The notes beneath the pieces were generated by a model. It was not told the origin of the DNA and searched no databases. It saw nothing but the letters and a program-made list of their open reading frames with translations. Both the position numbers and the translations under genes were made by a program. A stretch of DNA of 64,000 bases from Labia minor (lineage: Eukaryota; Arthropoda; Insecta; Dermaptera; Spongiphoridae): assembly GCA_963082975.1 (NCBI GenBank), contig OY720344.1, positions 71,514,546-71,578,545 of the forward strand. Reading direction: 5' to 3'. Below are positions 5,592 to 53,349 of the stretch, piece after piece. Within the stretch, counting starts at the first letter, position 1. Each line of letters begins with the position of its first letter.

Positions 5592-6621
5592 TTATAAAAA
5601 TTTTTTAATTTTCTTTGTACTTGATTGTTTTTGTAAAAGTTCTCGATTAATTTTTTGAATTCTAATATACGTTCGTACTTTTATATAATATTTCAAAACT
5701 TCTATAGAAATATCTTCAATATGCTTAGTTTTAGTATGAATTTCATTAGCTAAATCTGTTATTATATTATTGTTTTTATTGAAATTATTTGCATGAAACT
5801 TTTGAAACATATCCTCTGCAACTTTAATAATTGCAAAGAAATTTTCATTTGGATAACTTAAATGTCCTTGAGATATAAATGTTATCCAGTTTAAAGTTTC
5901 ATCTATTTTATCAATTTTTTTTAAATTATTAACCAGAAATGAATATTTTGACCTAAAGCGATAAACGATATATCCAGCTAAGTACATAAGTGCATTATTA
6001 TCTAATTCAGTTTCACTAATTGGCCCTAATTCATGGGTAAGTTCTGGAGATTGTATTACAGCTATACAATCGTCATGCAAATCTTCTGTTTCTTTTTGAA
6101 AATTAATACTATTAAATAAAATTTCAGTCGCGTTAGCATCTACTTCCTCTTGTGAAAAACTACTCTCTGACAATGATGGTGATCTAGATTTTAATATTAC
6201 AGAAGATTCACAAGCCGGTTTAATTATGTTTTCATCAGATGAAGATATAAATTCTGTATTTTTACTGTTTACAAATACAGCTGAAGCATGTTTTCCCAAT
6301 ATGTACCATCTTAGTCGATGTTGAAAATCTATAGCAGTAAAATCTTCTTTTGTCAAGTCACGTTTATAACATTCAACATTAAAATGCTCGGAACATATTC
6401 TCGCTGTTTTTAAATATATTAATATAAATATTATTATAATAATAATTTTTACTTATTTAAAAAAAAAAACACTTACCATTTTTAACATTAATCTTATCAT
6501 CCCTGCCACAGGCATTTATCCACAATTTATATAAACTTTCATCCATTGGAAATCTATGATATATTATTCCAGATGTCTTTTTACTAAAATTACTACACCA
6601 ATGAACTGCACAATACGACAT
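5592..6621 (-). CDS. KP-like THAP protein of the P element (318 aa, two exons)
   Basis: Exon 1 is 6621-6477 and exon 2 is 6403-5592, separated by a 73 bp GT-AG intron (GTAAGTG donor, AAAAACAG acceptor). Joining them keeps one open frame and completes a THAP zinc finger: C4-x4-C9, a HRFP segment, a conserved Trp at residue 34, then C52-x2-H55 in ICSEHF encoded just after the intron. Residues ~170-318 include a NALMYLAGYIVYRF segment that resembles the C-terminal part of P-element/THAP9 transposases. The catalytic RNase-H-like core and GTP-binding part, expected between these, are absent, and the protein is far below the ~750 aa of full P transposase. Drosophila KP is a comparable internally deleted product that binds P DNA and represses transposition; by inference this protein could do the same. 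The start is the first ATG before CAVHWC. No stop or frameshift interrupts it. Confidence 0.82.
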
Positions 6622-6733
6622 TTTGACTTCACAGCTCAACAATTTACAGAAAGTAAAGCTAATCGTATGTTTATTATTGTAACGAATAGATAAATAAATG
6701 TTGCGATCCTATAATTTCAATAGTGGCACGACC

Positions 6734-33477: not shown

Positions 33478-33481
33478 ATAA

Positions 33482-34226
33482 TGTAATATTTTAATTTATA
33501 AATATTTTTATATATTATATATAATATATAAAAATAAATATAAATCGATTTTTTAATTAATAATATTTCTAAAATAATCGAGATTCGCAGAAGAGGGGAG
33601 TAAGGTGAACAAAGTACTTGAGGGGTCGATTGGTAGGTTCTGGGTGCGTGGAGGACATTCAAGAAGGAATCGTCTTGGTGTGCGGGCTTACCTGTGAGTG
33701 TGACCCTTTTCCCTTCCCCGCTGCACGTCTGGCTTATACTCAGAGGAGTGCGTATATATATTTGGTTTAAAAGTGATTATTTGTGAAGTGTTACAATAAA
33801 ATTTATATTATTTATCAAACAATATTAAATTAAGTGTTAATTAGAATTTATATTTATACTTATCAATTAATAAGTAATATAAATTCACAAGTTAAATAGT
33901 GTTAAGTGAAGATTAAAACTAAGTCAAGAAATCAAGTTAATTGGATTGGTGTTATAAATAAATAAGTTATTTTTATAGAATTAAACTATATTGTATTATA
34001 TTAAGAGTAAATATTTATAGTTGTTAATTTTAGTAATATATTAGTTAATCAATTATTTGTATGTATAAAATATATTAAATTAAGTGTATCATTTTAGTTA
34101 TAAGGATTACAACTAAATGTTAATTTAAAATTTTATTAATTTTTTTATTATTAAATCAAATAATTTAATAATATGTACATTAATAAAAGTTAGTGGTGTC
34201 TTAATTTAACAACAATTTTATCCCAC
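33482..34226 (+). repeat. 5' LTR
   Basis: About 745 bp; matches 35929-36673 almost base for base. A GC-richer part (33585-33750) precedes an AT-rich part. Confidence 0.88.
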
Positions 34227-34237
34227 TTCTGACACCA
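34221..34237 (-). other. tRNA-Leu-type primer binding sequence in inverse orientation
   Basis: The minus strand reads TGGTGTCAGAAGTGGGA, which is complementary to a 3' end ...CTTCTGACACCA as in animal tRNA-Leu. It lies two bases from the inverted LTR copy, where a primer-binding site would be for that copy. Confidence 0.7.
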
Positions 34238-34239
34238 TT

Positions 34240-34540
34240 TGTAATGTGGGAAAAAATTGTTGTTAAATTAAGACACCACTAACTTTTATTAATGTACATA
34301 TTATTAAATTATTTGATTTAATAATAAAAAAATTAATAAAATTTTAAATTAACATTTAGTTGTAATCCTTATAACTAAAATGATACACTTAATTTAATAT
34401 ATTTTATACATACAAATAATTGATTAACTAATATATTACTAAAATTAACAACTATAAATATTTACTCTTAATATAATACAATATAGTTTAATTCTATAAA
34501 AATAACTTATTTATTTATAACACCAATCCAATTAACTTGA
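34240..34540 (-). repeat. Inverted partial LTR copy
   Basis: Reverse complement of the last ~300 bp of the LTR, beginning TGTAATGTGGGAAAAA. Together with the 5' LTR it forms a long palindrome with a ~15 bp spacer. Confidence 0.88.
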
Positions 34541-34663
34541 TGTATAAAATATATTAAATTAAGTGTATCATTTTAGTTATAAGGATTACAACTAAATGTT
34601 AATTTAAAATTTTATTAATTTTTTTATTATTAAATCAAATAATTTAATAATATGTACATTAAT
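34541..34663 (+). repeat. Second direct partial LTR copy followed by an A-tract
   Basis: Matches the LTR from TGTATAAAATATATTAAATT to GTACATTAATAAAA, then a run of ~27 A before the coding segment. The A-tract could be a real polyadenylation trace or an assembly join. Confidence 0.75.
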
Positions 34664-34690
<27 letters not shown>

Positions 34691-34694
<4 letters not shown>

Positions 34695-35866
34695 GGAAAC
34701 CCTGGAAAGGACCTTTTCAGGTAACAGAAAAATTGTCAGAGCAAGTTTACGAAATAGAAACATCCCCAGATAATCGCTTAAGAGTTCACATCAACCGATT
34801 AAAACTCTCCACAATCAAGGGTAAATCTACTAGTCCGATTTCAGAGAAAAATGAAAACCTCTTTAGTCATCCGACTAATGAGCCTATTGGAGTCTGCATT
34901 GGTGCTGATTTGATTATGACCAAGGGCTTAGCTCTCGAAGTTAGAGAGAAGTTCAATGGATTAGACACTCTTAAAGCCCAACAACCCGAAGAGGGTAAAA
35001 CCCTAAAATTAAATAGAGGAAGTAGAAAAATATACTACTTGGTTACCAAAACCCGAAGCCATGAAAGGTCAAATTATGGCAATCTTAAAAGAGCATGTGA
35101 GTCAATGCTCAAACATGCAGAAGAGTTAGGGGGTAGCCTGATAGGCCTCTCAAAAGAGGATTTAGTAACAGATAGACTACGTTGGAACGTAATTAAATCT
35201 ATCCTTACTAAGTTATTAAAAAGATATTCCTCAAAAATAATTATATATATGAAACGGAATTCTGACGACAAAGAGAAAGAGTCTTCTAATGAAATACTGA
35301 ATTATGATCCAGCTATTGGAGGCAGAAGAACAGAGAGAATGGGTTGGAGGAATACAATGGAGTTTCTAGAGAGGGAAAAACCAATTGACGTGGAACAGTT
35401 AGAGAAAGAACCTAATTCAGAGATGGAGATGGAAAGGGATAACGGGAGAGCAACCAGCGATGTTGATTCCTCCAGTTCAGAAATAGAACCTCAGGACGAG
35501 CAGGTGTCATCATCGGAGCGAGAAAATAATAACTCCTATGATCACCCGGCTATTCTAGATTCGGAACAAGAGCCTAGAAGAGGTAAGAGACGTGGTCGCC
35601 CTCCTAAGAGGAAAATATTTAATTTCCACAAACGGAAAATTATCCCAATAGGAGGTGAACCCTCTGAAACCCCAGCATTTTTGGAAACGGAAGATCATCA
35701 ATACTCAGAGGAAGATGATCCAGGTACATTATCTGATTGTGTAATTCCACACCAAAGTGAATTGGGTAAAGATATTGTTCCCAGGAGAGGAAGAAGAGAG
35801 GGTCTAAGGAGCCAAACTTATTATAGTTCTCAAAGGCACCATTCCAAAGCAGTATTTTCTTATTAA
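34691..35866 (+). CDS. Fossil coding segment: integrase tail, macrodomain, acidic AT-hook tail
   Basis: Open segment inside the LTR element. Order of parts: the F-R-K-P-W-K-G-P-F-Q-V ... L-R-V-H-I-N-R-L-K segment, the 'GPY/F' C-terminal end of Ty3/gypsy integrase; about 25 linker residues; a ~125-residue stretch at 34886-35250 reading G-A-D-L-I-M-T-K-G-L-A-L-E-V, K-I-Y-Y-L-V-T-K, N-Y-G-N-L-K and L-R-W-N-V-I-K in the spacing of OARD1/TARG1-type macrodomains, which bind or remove ADP-ribose; then a Ser/Glu-rich acidic tail with KRRGRPPKRK (AT-hook) near 35590. In gypsy elements this position is usually the end of pol or env. The macrodomain is inferred to be host-derived. Whether it was ever active is unknown. 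The element is broken. Confidence 0.72.
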
Positions 35867-35909: not shown

Positions 35910-35928
35910 TTTTTAAAGGGAGGAATAG
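35910..35928 (+). promoter_or_regulatory. Polypurine tract
   Basis: AAAGGGAGGAATAG immediately before the 3' LTR, the usual plus-strand priming site. Confidence 0.7.
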
Positions 35929-36679
35929 TGTAATATTTTAATTTATAAATATTTTTATATATTATATATAATATATAAAAATAAATATAAATCGATTTTT
36001 TAATTAATAATATTTCTAAAATAATCGAGATTCGCAGAAGAGGGGAGTAAGGTGAACAAAGTACTTGAGGGGTCGATTGGTAGGTTCTGGGTGCGTGGAG
36101 GACATTCAAGAAGGAATCGTCTTGGTGTGCGGGCTTACCTGTGAGTGTGACCCTTTTCCCTTCCCCGCTGCACGTCTGGCTTATACTCAGAGGAGTGCGT
36201 ATATATATTTGGTTTAAAAGTGATTATTTGTGAAGTGTTACAATAAAATTTATATTATTTATCAAACAATATTAAATTAAGTGTTAATTAGAATTTATAT
36301 TTATACTTATCAATTAATAAGTAATATAAATTCACAAGTTAAATAGTGTTAAGTGAAGATTAAAACTAAGTCAAGAAATCAAGTTAATTGGATTGGTGTT
36401 ATAAATAAATAAGTTATTTTTATAGAATTAAACTATATTGTATTATATTAAGAGTAAATATTTATAGTTGTTAATTTTAGTAATATATTAGTTAATCAAT
36501 TATTTGTATGTATAAAATATATTAAATTAAGTGTATCATTTTAGTTATAAGGATTACAACTAAATGTTAATTTAAAATTTTATTAATTTTTTTATTATTA
36601 AATCAAATAATTTAATAATATGTACATTAATAAAAGTTAGTGGTGTCTTAATTTAACAACAATTTTTTCCCACATTACA
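35929..36679 (+). repeat. 3' LTR
   Basis: 751 bp, TGTAATATTT ... CCCACATTACA, with 5'-TG/CA-3' termini. Confidence 0.9.
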
Positions 36680-36683
36680 ATAA

Positions 36684-43261: not shown

Positions 43262-43264
<3 letters not shown>
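43252..43264. repeat. LINE target-site duplication, left copy
   Basis: ACGTATGTGTAAT, repeated at 43757-43769. Confidence 0.85.
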
Positions 43265-43309
<45 letters not shown>

Positions 43310-43756
43310 ATAAGGAGGGGAAAATCCACGCGGACACCCCGCTGTAAGTTGGTGTTCCAACGGGGTAGTGCCGGACTCTAACCGGCTAAAAACCCCCCCT
43401 TTTTTGGACCTTTGCAGGTGCCCCCCTGGAACCACCGTAAGGTATTACTTCAGGGGGGAGGCCCATCTACCCTCGGGGACCTGTTAGGATCCGCTTACAC
43501 GCATCGGCGACCGCGCGCCAGTTCTCTGGGCTGCCCAGCATTAACCCTATCAGGTTTTCAGGCGACGGTTCCTCGCCTAGCTCCAATGCAAGTCGACTTC
43601 TCAGTCGACACCATCTTCCGCATTCAAACAGGAGGTGTTCGGCAGTCTCGGGTACCCGGCACAGACCACACCGACCGTCGATCGTCTTCCCAATCCTCGT
43701 GAGGTACGCACCGAAGTCCCCATGGCCAGTGAGGATCTGAGTCAGATAAAAGTCCG
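43265..43756 (-). mobile_element. 5'-truncated LINE (I/R1/Jockey-like) with poly(A) tail
   Basis: A 42-base T-run at the left is the poly(A) tail on the minus strand. It is preceded by a GC-rich 3' UTR and an open C-terminal coding part. Perfect 13 bp target duplications flank it (43252-43264 and 43757-43769). GC content is far above the surroundings. Intact target sites, open frame and long A-tail show a recent, dead-on-arrival insertion. Confidence 0.92.
43467..43756 (-). CDS. LINE ORF2 C-terminal end (partial, 96 codons)
   Basis: Reads D-F-Y-L-T-Q-I-L-T-G-H-G-D-F-G-A-Y-L, then C-G-L-C-R-V-P-E-T-A-E-H-L-L-F-E-C, a CCHC-type cysteine-histidine motif (C-x2-C-x7-H-x4-C) after the RT (and RNase H where present) in I, R1 and Jockey-group LINEs. 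It ends with a TAG at 43467-43469. The N-terminal part, including RT and endonuclease, is missing by 5' truncation, so it makes no working protein. Confidence 0.88.
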
Positions 43757-43769
43757 ACGTATGTGTAAT
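43757..43769. repeat. LINE target-site duplication, right copy
   Basis: ACGTATGTGTAAT. Confidence 0.85.
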
Positions 43770-45029
43770 ACATCAGTTATTTAAATATCTCTTCCACTGT
43801 TAATTTTTAGCATAGAAAAGCTCAACTAATGTTTCTTCACAAAGAGCGGTTGCATAAATTAAAGGGACAAAACAACATTTCAGAAAATATTACTTATATA
43901 ATGCGGCAAAAAAATATCTGATGGTTTTGAAAATTTATAAAATATTTATTGTTTCACAAAAAAAAGATAACGCTTTATTATTTAATTTTAGTTGTTTTGG
44001 CATTTATAATTCTTATTCCCACCCTATATATTATTTACATATATAAATTCAATTATCCGCACATATATATATTTATATAATAATCAAAATATACATTACT
44101 CTTTTTATATTTTAAATTTTTCAAACAAAATATCTTTTGATGTTGAAATCCTCTAAAAATGATTAAATTTGCAATTGTTCCTTTTGAAGAAAATAAAACG
44201 CGATTCCCTTTAAAAAAAAATTCACTCACTGTTGTTTGGTTTCATCTCATAACAATAGAATTATATAATCATACATATAAAAAAATGAAATTGTTCGTGT
44301 TCTTCTAAAGCATAGAGGCTTAAAATGTTAATAAATCACATTTATATATTCAATAATTTGTAATTTTCCACAGATAAGATTAAAACAATTTCTTTCACAA
44401 TGTCCATGTATACAAGCTAAGAGAAGTCTTAATGGAGCCATTCAGGTTTATGGAATATGTTGAGTGCATTTATTTTTGTACAAATTTGAAAAATAAAAAA
44501 GGGTTATTTTGAAATGATAGCATATAGCAAAGTGTATAGAACAAAGAACAAAGATTGAGATTTATATGACTTACTTTTTAAGGAGAAAGGCTATTAAATA
44601 ATAATATAAGCTATTTAAATAGAATTTTATGGATATAATTTGAAAGAAAAGAAGTCGTTAAATAGAATAATGGACTTAATAATTGGTATATTAAATTAAA
44701 AATTCAACGCAATGAAACTGATAAAAAAAGAATAAGTAGTTCATGTAGTAACTCTTTGCTTCAATAGTAATAAAGTAGTTGAATATATATGTATATAAGT
44801 TTCCTAAATAATATTTATAATTAATATAATGTTTAATTTTTTTAAAAAATGGCATTTTTAAAAGATTAAAATTATTTTAATATTTTTAAATTTATATCTA
44901 GAAAGAAGAGGGCTTATTGAGATTGCAATTATTGAGAAAATATATGTTTGTATGTCTGAAATCACAAAAATTTCAATTTTATATCAATTTTTCTGAATTC
45001 TAAAAAATAAATTTTTAAAAGTGATATGA
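43770..45029. other. AT-rich spacer
   Basis: No gene recognised. Confidence 0.4.
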
Positions 45030-50982: not shown

Positions 50983-51047
50983 TAATTATTAAGAGAATTT
51001 TTATTAAAAGACCACATTATTTGTATAAAATTATTTATTAAATTAAA
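50983..51047. repeat. Penelope-like element, left inverted segment
   Basis: 65 bp inverse of 53676-53740; begins TAATTATTAAGAGAATTTTT. Confidence 0.92.
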
Positions 51048-51048
51048 T

Positions 51049-53349
51049 GAGAAATATAACCTAAAAATTCAAAAGCAGGTAAGGAGTTATGATGGATTAA
51101 TTGTTAAAAAAGCAAAATTATTAAGTTCTTTGAATTTCTTAAAAAGATGTCGTGATCAAGATATTATACCAAAAGGCTTTTATATTAAGCGAGTTGTATA
51201 CACAAAAAGAGCGACTAGCATATATAATAATGCTAGTTTGGCTCTGTTACGAGAACGCATCACAAATATCAGGCAAGTTTTATTTACATTAGACACTGAT
51301 TTATTCAATATATATAATAATCTAAAATCTGTTTTAACCCAGGAAGAAATTTCTTATTTGCAGCACGTATCCCAGACACACTTTAAATTTACACATAAAA
51401 AACAAACCGATATTCAAAAATCAAAATTTGATAAACTTTCATTCAATAAGACTAAAACATCTATTCAGAATTTTGATAATAACAAATTAGTAGTCAATCT
51501 ATCAAATAAAAGTCTTGACAAAAATACCATCTCAGTGTTAGCAAAAGGACCAAAGTTCTCCATAGCACCGAATAAAATTCCAAAAATTGAGATAGTTAGT
51601 TCAATTGAATCATCCTTATATAACTTACCAAACAACATTGCAGAGGAAATTAGATTTGATACGATTAACATACTGAAAAATGCTAAACCACCCAAACCAA
51701 ATTTGACCAAATCTGAGATGCGTGCTCTGAAGGAAATTAGAAACGATGACTCTCTAAAGATTATCCCTGCCGACAAAGGTAACGCCACTGTTGTAATGAA
51801 TACAGCGGATTATAAACAAAAAATGGAAAATATTTTGAATTCTTCTACCTACGAAATACAGAAAAAAGATCCAACGGATAAATTCTGTAGAAAACTAAAA
51901 TCAATAATAAAGAATCTACCTATTGAGGAAAAAGATAAAGATAAATTAAAACCGAAAGATCCACAAATACCAAAAATATACGGTAATCCCAAAATCCATA
52001 AAACCAACAAACCTTTAAGACCAATAGTTAGTCAAATCAATTCAGTGACTTACAACTCATCAAAATATCTAGCACATTTGTTAAAACCATTTACAGGTAC
52101 TAATTTTTCATACGTTAAAAATTCCACCCACTTAGTAGAAATGTTATCAAAAGTAGAAATTACAAAAAATGATATATTGGTGAGTCTGGATGTGGACTCC
52201 TTGTACACAAATGTTCCTATTGACGAGACCATTGAGATTATAAAATCAAACATTACATTAGATAAAAATACTCTCGAATTAATAGAATTTTGCCAAAAAT
52301 CTACATACTTTATTTATGATAAAAAGATTTATAAGCAAAAAGAAGGATGTGCTATGGGTAGTCCACTAAGCCCAGTATTCGCTAACATATTCATGGAAGA
52401 ATTTGAATCAAAATTGATCAATAATGCAATAAAGAAACCAAAACTGTTTCTTAGATATGTGGATGATATTTTGATGATTTGGCCTCATGGTAAGGATTCT
52501 TTAGTTAAATTTGTAGAAGCAGCAAATAATTTACATAAAAATATAAAACTAAGCGTTGAATGGGAAATAAATGAAGAGTTACCGTTTCTTGATGTATTAA
52601 TTAAAAAGAAACAGAATGGATTAAGGTTTGATATTTTCAGGAAAACAACTCACACCAACAGATATATCCACGCAGATTCCCACCACCATCCATCACAAAA
52701 ATATGGAGTGATAAAAACACTGCACAAAAGAGCCGAAGAGATATGCTCAAATGAAAACATTAAAAAAGAAAAACAACGATTGAAGGAAGCTTTCATAAAC
52801 AATGGCTTCTCGGAATATGAAATTAGGAAATTCAGTAAAACAAAAAAGACAGAAATCAAAAATGAAAATGAAAAACCAATATACAGATCACAAATAACAT
52901 TACCTTATATAAAAGGAACAACAGAAAAAATAGCGTCAAAATTGAGGAAACACAACATCAGAGTAACATATAAACCTCATAAACAAATGTCTTCTCTCAC
53001 CTCAAATATAAAAGACAAAATTAAAAACGAAAATAATGGAGTTTATAAGGTAACTTGTGAATGCAAAAAAGTATACATTGGTGAAACAAGTAGAAAGATT
53101 TCTACAAGACTGTCTGAACATGAGAGAGCCATTAGATTGAAACATCCAAATCAATCAGCAATTGCAGAACATGCCTTAACAACAGGACATAAAATAAATT
53201 TAGATAATGTAGAAACACTTCATATTGAAAATAATTGGTGGAAAAGAAAAATAAAAGAATCTATAGAAATTGATAATCATCCCAATAATATTAACAAAGA
53301 GGATGGATATAGACTTAATAAGATGTGGAACATAGTGTTGGATGAGTAA
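51049..53349 (+). CDS. Penelope-like polyprotein: RT and GIY-YIG endonuclease
   Basis: Open frame to the TAA at 53347. It is open from 50986 but has no ATG before ~51718. Recognisable protein begins just after the inverted segment (N-L-K-I-Q-K-Q-V-R-S-Y-D-G-L), continuing through F-L-K-R-C-R-D-Q-D-I-I-P-K-G-F, which is near the usual N-terminus. Numbering from the TTG at 51130: the RT fingers Y-G-N-P-K-I-H-K near 280, G-C-A-M-G-S-P-L-S-P near 406, catalytic Y-V-D-D at 443-446, and P-F-L-D-V thumb region near 485. The GIY-YIG nuclease starts at G-V-Y-K-V-T (637) with C-x-C, V-Y-I-G-E-T-S-R and the R-x-x-E-H helix. RT copies RNA onto DNA cut by the nuclease. About 765 aa are present, near the family's size. 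The missing start codon shows 5' truncation or an absent upstream exon. Confidence 0.93.
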   Translation, partial: EKYNLKIQKQVRSYDGLIVKKAKLLSSLNFLKRCRDQDIIPKGFYIKRVVYTKRATSIYNNASLALLRERITNIRQVLFTLDTDLFNIYNNLKSVLTQEEISYLQHVSQTHFKFTHKKQTDIQKSKFDKLSFNKTKTSIQNFDNNKLVVNLSNKSLDKNTISVLAKGPKFSIAPNKIPKIEIVSSIESSLYNLPNNIAEEIRFDTINILKNAKPPKPNLTKSEMRALKEIRNDDSLKIIPADKGNATVVMNTADYKQKMENILNSSTYEIQKKDPTDKFCRKLKSIIKNLPIEEKDKDKLKPKDPQIPKIYGNPKIHKTNKPLRPIVSQINSVTYNSSKYLAHLLKPFTGTNFSYVKNSTHLVEMLSKVEITKNDILVSLDVDSLYTNVPIDETIEIIKSNITLDKNTLELIEFCQKSTYFIYDKKIYKQKEGCAMGSPLSPVFANIFMEEFESKLINNAIKKPKLFLRYVDDILMIWPHGKDSLVKFVEAANNLHKNIKLSVEWEINEELPFLDVLIKKKQNGLRFDIFRKTTHTNRYIHADSHHHPSQKYGVIKTLHKRAEEICSNENIKKEKQRLKEAFINNGFSEYEIRKFSKTKKTEIKNENEKPIYRSQITLPYIKGTTEKIASKLRKHNIRVTYKPHKQMSSLTSNIKDKIKNENNGVYKVTCECKKVYIGETSRKISTRLSEHERAIRLKHPNQSAIAEHALTTGHKINLDNVETLHIENNWWKRKIKESIEIDNHPNNINKEDGYRLNKMWNIVLDE

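Follow-up and report, generated by a model that had tools for sequence, protein, structure and literature searches.

The window, by which we mean the whole 64,000-nucleotide stretch of Labia minor DNA that was analyzed (C1:71514546-71578545 in a 604-Mb genome of 71 contigs), holds a copy of an LTR retrotransposon in which an integrase tail runs in frame into a macrodomain (Table 1). The copy has the hallmarks of the Ty3/gypsy type: paired LTRs with TG...CA ends and a flanking target-site duplication, a primer binding site adjoining an LTR end (inverted in this copy), and a polypurine tract. The LTRs are identical at 738/738 comparable bases, the 5' LTR being without its last 13 bases; this identity, together with the 4-bp ATAA duplication, indicates that the copy is young. 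Between the LTRs there is no pol domain besides the integrase tail. A single open frame of 407 codons spans 34643-35866 in the ORF listing of the window. The initial 16 codons consist of LTR sequence and poly(A) (34664-34690), and the coding part proper begins at about 34691. When 2000 random 1173-mers, generated by a first-order model of this segment, were read in six frames, the longest open run was 267 as against 391 in the real sequence, and a chance open frame was rejected on this control.

Table 1. Features of the window copy, with two examples of domain order in related elements and the host OARD1 gene
Feature	Position	Strand	Basis or remark
Target-site duplication ATAA, left	33478..33481	.	
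5' LTR	33482..34219	+	738 of 751 bp; matches offsets 0-737 of the 3' LTR without a difference
tRNA-type primer binding site, 18 nt	34220..34237	-	
Inverted LTR piece, 302 bp	34240..34541	-	identical to LTR offsets 449-750
Forward LTR fragment	34542..34663	+	offsets 581-702; AATAAA runs into A run
27-A run	34664..34690	+	source of K-run in open frame; probably a copied poly(A) tail
C-terminal 391 residues of pol frame (integrase tail, macrodomain, acidic tail)	34691..35866	+	open frame; stop TAA
Integrase C-terminal domain, PF22938 Integrase_p58_C	34709..34804	+	Pfam
OARD1/TARG1-type macrodomain	34826..35248	+	PDB-chain match, BLASTP, predicted fold
Acidic tail with RGRPPK (35591-35608) and second RGR (35786)	35264..35863	+	matched only in the window's own family A
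Polypurine tract AAAGGGAGGAATAG	35915..35928	+	adjoins 3' LTR
3' LTR, 751 bp	35929..36679	+	TGTAAT...ATTACA
Target-site duplication ATAA, right	36680..36683	.	
PF17919, PF00665, macrodomain in order	C4:80441100, 80441937, 80442804		example
PF17919, PF00665, macrodomain in order	C1:102827460, 102828324, 102829185		example
Host cellular OARD1 gene, two exon-like pieces	C2:49803555-49803878, 49803922-49804062	-	49% and 50% identical to mammalian OARD1

Integrase_p58_C was matched at residues 7-38 of the window ORF (E = 1.6e-9, above the cut-off) and was the sole Pfam match in that ORF at E up to 10; no chromodomain was found there. Among PDB chains, phmmer matched the following domain to human OARD1/TARG1 (C6orf130) at 1.2e-17 to 2.2e-17 in five of the six sequences listed, the sixth being a designed protein (0.24), and BLASTP aligned it with human OARD1 at 40/131 identical residues and 0 gaps. 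The earlier note on this DNA had proposed an OARD1/TARG1-type macrodomain in frame after a gypsy-type integrase tail, which the Pfam match (1.6e-9) and the phmmer matches (about 1e-17) bear out. The Macro-profile check that it called for gave a divided answer: Pfam Macro (PF01661) misses the window copy, whereas the OARD1 chains of the PDB match it at about 1e-17. The Macro model is weak for the OARD1 subfamily, and the four OARD1 proteins tested score 23.3-28.2 bits against a cut-off of 22. Against the 120 OARD1 homologues listed (the best 120 of 3568 matched proteins, mostly named OARD1, with human OARD1 added to the query), the real domain reached 97.1 bits and the best of 200 shuffles 26.9, so chance similarity to OARD1 was rejected. 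The predicted fold is that of an OARD1/TARG1 macrodomain, and structure matching paired it with viral proteins, including several macrodomain-bearing ones from insect-associated RNA viruses. The window copy also matched phrog_335 of PHROGs, annotated "phosphatase" (5.4e-7), and had no match in NCBIfam. The acidic tail that follows (200 residues) includes KRRGRPPKRK, as the earlier note had reported. Its RGRP core in a basic patch might suit the label "AT-hook"; Pfam gave no AT-hook match in the tail, only CDC45 at 0.12, and a comparison of the tail with solved structures gave no matches.

The ligand pocket was assessed from the TARG1 contact list, the roles of the catalytic residues and the pattern TKx(30,35)Px[IL]GxGxD, as set out in PMC6397177. 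The window copy retains the contacts L21, F22, C33, T83, K84, D125, and Y150. The catalytic T83, K84, and D125 are thus all in place in the alignment, and the spacing from K84 to D125 is 41 residues in both the window copy and TARG1. Eight contacts are altered (D20N, H32V, S35G, I44L, L47E, P118S, G121D, and G123V); asparagine at position 20 also occurs in 3/24 homologues, so D20N alone is mild. Of 40 positions invariant among the homologues compared, 22 are retained, 22/35 outside loop 3 and 0/5 within it (residues 117-124). The pattern, which includes the GxG phosphate loop, fails in the window copy and passes in 109 of the 120 listed homologues. A compensated frameshift was considered as the cause of the loop-3 loss and rejected, since over 35117-35208 both alternative frames are interrupted by stops and neither contains GxG. 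The alignment of the window domain with mammalian OARD1 has 0 gaps in 132 columns. With these loops and contacts altered, recognition of ADP-ribose seems unlikely in the family to which the window copy belongs, called family A below.

Between 33482 and 34690 the LTR sequences form a palindromic structure with the 18-nt tRNA-type sequence at its center and the poly(A) run, an arrangement consistent with a self-primed reverse-transcription product as provirus. We infer that the odd stretch left of 34691 arose as a side product of reverse transcription. The tRNA-copied 3' end of plus-strand strong-stop DNA may have snapped back onto TCCCAC, which it matches in the end of the LTR, and been extended; synthesis would then have switched to a polyadenylated RNA end and from there to pol. 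The single mismatch at the inverted join is as expected of such a snapped-back primer. The stretch may instead be a chimera of the assembly, which would leave the integrase-macrodomain frame untouched. Rfam and tRNA scans of the window gave no matches. A second palindromic insertion of family A lies at C9:25096488-25102402, where the macrodomain pieces are opposed (25099174 on the plus strand and 25100849 on the minus strand).

Elsewhere the window holds a 787-codon open frame (50986-53349) with a reverse transcriptase domain (RVT_1, 2.3e-16), the end of which resembles what we take to be the GIY-YIG part of a Penelope-type element. A THAP domain on the minus strand (6460-6708, 6.2e-8) adjoins a 286-codon open frame (5595-6452), and may belong to a DNA transposon or to a host gene. 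The 493 bp at 43264-43756 are 100% identical to a stretch of L018 and overlap a weak zf-RVT match (43470-43772; 0.0023, below the cut-off), and are perhaps the end of a recent non-LTR element. In the wider genome, the starts of contigs C1, C2, and C3 (L001-L009) are very AT-rich (GC 19-20%) and satellite-like in composition.

Searched genome-wide, the 391-residue query gave 106 matches of 133 candidates, and the macrodomain alone gave 117 (125 scored). The 117 rows were grouped into families by identity to the window domain and by frame length. Family A accounts for 27 rows, 93-100% identical plus decayed pieces at 73-83%, a few of these rows being two pieces of one copy; family B for 31 (28-29% identical); and family C with minor groups (C+) for 59 (25-27%), among them the row of the host OARD1 gene (29%). 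The domain is present in further copies of the window's family and in two or more other families, so the absence from other members that the earlier note had named as refuting it was not what we found. A stop lies inside the macrodomain in 3/117 rows, and 93/117 stand in open frames of at least 1000 residues (A 15/27, B 23/31, C+ 55/59), with typical lengths of 1490/1491 (A), 1527 (B), and 1628-1662 (C) residues. Because many copies are young, open frames alone are no proof of selection on the domain. The LTR query gave 40 near-full rows (of 281 candidates), which form 16 pairs and leave 8 unpaired; 12/16 pairs span 7,074-7,089 bp. A blind sample of 300 kb of the genome contained no LTR or ORF copy, as expected at such a copy number.

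The integrase core (PF00665, rve; best 150 of 1555 candidates scored) lies upstream of the macrodomain in 25/31 B rows and 56/59 C+ rows, 81/90 in all, so that 81 of the 150 rve rows have a same-strand macrodomain row downstream. From start to start the two lie 849-871 bp apart, 870 (B) and 861 (C) being the commonest values, and the rows share an open-frame length in 76/81 cases. Among the same best 150 of 1555, PF00665 was upstream of 0/27 family A rows. The remaining 69/150 rve rows are without a downstream macrodomain row, which indicates that the domain belongs to some families and not to all. Other families, with frames of 1202, 1247, 1399, 1402, and 1529 residues, have integrase core or RNase H rows and gave no macrodomain row in the genome-wide macrodomain, OARD1, and Pfam Macro searches, which makes them suitable for comparison. 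RNase H (PF17919, best 150 of 1347 candidates scored) stands in the same frame in 12/12 family A rows with 1490/1491-residue frames, (for the macrodomain at C1:83192376, for instance, 1,689 bp upstream), and in the 1491-residue frame PF17919 precedes the integrase tail. Families B and C have PF17919, PF00665, and the macrodomain in that order with equal frame lengths, RT-RNase H preceding the integrase in one pol frame.

The aligned block shows no net change in length (137/137 residues in B and 136/136 in C), and the junction of integrase tail and macrodomain is collinear, typical B rows having 199 codons per 197 query residues and C rows 189/189. The acidic RGRPPK tail had 27 matches genome-wide (76-100% identical), all of them in family A, so the shared part is the macrodomain and not the tail. 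Compared with the window copy, seven family A copies of greater divergence show 97-98% identity in the macrodomain and 94-96% in the tail. Genome-wide, Pfam Macro found 92 places: 88 element rows (B 31, C+ 57) and 4 elsewhere, with zero family A rows among them. These 88 rows score above the cut-off at 29.9-37.8 bits, compared with 23.3-28.2 for the four OARD1 proteins. By this profile, family A appears the least canonical of the three.

In at least three diverged Ty3/gypsy-type families of this genome, the integrase continues in frame, at its C-terminal end, into an OARD1/TARG1-type macrodomain, and the arrangement is collinear between families. Identity between the window domain and the host OARD1 gene is 29% over the larger piece of that gene, and identity to mammalian OARD1 is 30%. 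With so low an identity to the host's own gene we rejected a recent capture from the present host, and the capture of a host macrodomain proposed in the earlier note is unsupported if it is taken as recent. Those element rows that span the domain (starting at 12-14 and ending at 150-152) share 28-32% identity with mammalian OARD1. The cellular gene is slow, coral and mammalian OARD1 being 63% identical over 113 residues; set against about 30% between element and mammal, this means that the element domains have diverged far more. The collinear junction makes a single old capture the simplest reading: a common ancestor of families A, B, and C would have acquired an OARD1-type domain from a cellular gene in one ancient event, and the lineages descended from it would have kept the domain. 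That the three families captured OARD1-like domains independently seems improbable to us. Family A is as near to mammalian OARD1 (28-30%) as to B (28-29%), and nearer to it than to C (25-27%), which could speak for separate events, but a slow cellular gene combined with fast elements would yield the same star-like distances, and separate captures sit poorly with the collinear junctions. Chance similarity, an assembly chimera, or a one-off fusion, for which the inverted LTR and poly(A) stretch directly upstream in the window copy might be cited, retains next to no probability: the integrase-macrodomain frame recurs at about a hundred places, the odd junctions all lie left of 34691, and the shuffle control separates the domain from chance.

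That many occurrences suggests that the elements use the module, perhaps in steering or protecting integration. We tentatively favor, at somewhat below an even chance, a joint reading in which one old capture was kept, the domain docks the integration complex on an ADP-ribosylated target, and family A has been repurposed. The macrodomain would travel with the integrase and tether the integration complex at the target, either to chromatin or DNA that bears ADP-ribose or to a partner protein; this putative targeting role is argued from the position of the domain after the integrase. In B and C, erasure of the ADP-ribose mark might come in addition. In family A, where the phosphate loop is lost and the fold is kept along with the catalytic Thr-Lys and Asp, the domain would more likely be a protein- or chromatin-binding module, helped by the basic RGRPPK tail. 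A broader formulation, that this Ty3/gypsy clade reads or erases ADP-ribose at the integration site through an integrase-borne macrodomain and that family A lost the loop and re-used the fold, we regard as somewhat doubtful.

TARG1 acts on ADP-ribose on DNA, according to PMC9967889, and since it acts on ADP-ribose on proteins as well, removal of the mark by families B and C is the leading alternative to docking. An active ADP-ribosyl hydrolase might clear host-added ADP-ribose from proteins, RNA, or DNA ends of the element, in counter-defense or in control of repair. The equivalents of T83, K84, and D125 with their 41-residue Lys-to-Asp spacing, the placement of families B and C above the Pfam Macro cut-off, and the structural matches to proteins of insect-associated RNA viruses are all compatible with such an enzyme, but the window copy fails the pattern passed by most listed homologues and has lost S35 and the GxG loop; as an account of these elements we consider it rather unlikely. 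The simple counter-defense by erasure of ADP-ribose that the earlier note suggested is accordingly weakened for family A, where the phosphate-binding loop and other contacts have changed. The loss of pocket residues from a predicted fold that is retained in family A would also suit a purely structural part, a folded spacer or oligomerization piece of the integrase that binds no ligand, whichever the family. We think this unlikely, as B and C outscore the four OARD1 proteins on Pfam Macro, a difference that suggests, without proof, more canonical loops in those families.

In chromoviruses a chromodomain stands after the integrase. The present elements likewise carry an extra chromatin-type module in a Ty3/gypsy polyprotein; here it is a macrodomain, and the window ORF has no chromodomain match. 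Chromodomains are assumed to set the targeting preference of chromoviruses, and some have lost the ligand-binding cage yet persist (PMC6317226), a parallel to family A. Compared with human OARD1/TARG1 and its orthologues, the element domain differs in being fused to an integrase and, in family A, in having lost the GxG loop together with S35 and P118. Among RNA viruses (alphaviruses, rubella, and insect flavi- and virga-like viruses), macrodomains are carried in the viral genome and are structural matches to the window domain. Fish epsilon-like endogenous retroviruses join a retroelement to a macro domain as well, but there it occupies additional ORFs (Basta et al., 2009, cited by PMC4977317); in the elements described here, which are Ty3/gypsy-type, it is fused to the integrase itself. 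Bdelloid LTR retrotransposons captured enzymes beyond gag and pol (an esterase and a DEDDy exonuclease) as separate ORF3s, and the abstract names no macrodomain (PMC5408684). Searches of viral contigs, prokaryote genome contigs, and phages gave no matches. Protein searches with the window ORF or the domain alone, confined to candidates up to 1.75 times the query length and so leaving whole pol proteins outside their scope, found no relatives. Among the papers listed on macrodomains in retroelements, judged by titles and abstract openings, none showed an LTR retrotransposon with a macrodomain. The earlier note's remark that it knew of no described case agrees, for LTR retrotransposons, with the literature searched and gives way, for retroelements more broadly, to the fish endogenous retroviruses (PMC4977317). 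Capture of domains by LTR elements is known; we did not find a macrodomain at the integrase end described.

Chromodomains are the standard chromatin reader attached to an integrase, and a macrodomain in that place would link integration to ADP-ribosylation, a mark laid at DNA breaks and in antiviral responses. Canonical-looking and degenerate pockets occur together in one genome in young copies, and this would offer a natural experiment on whether the reading of ADP-ribose affects where elements land. If the proposed role is true, PARP signaling would be part of target choice or of the repair of integration gaps.
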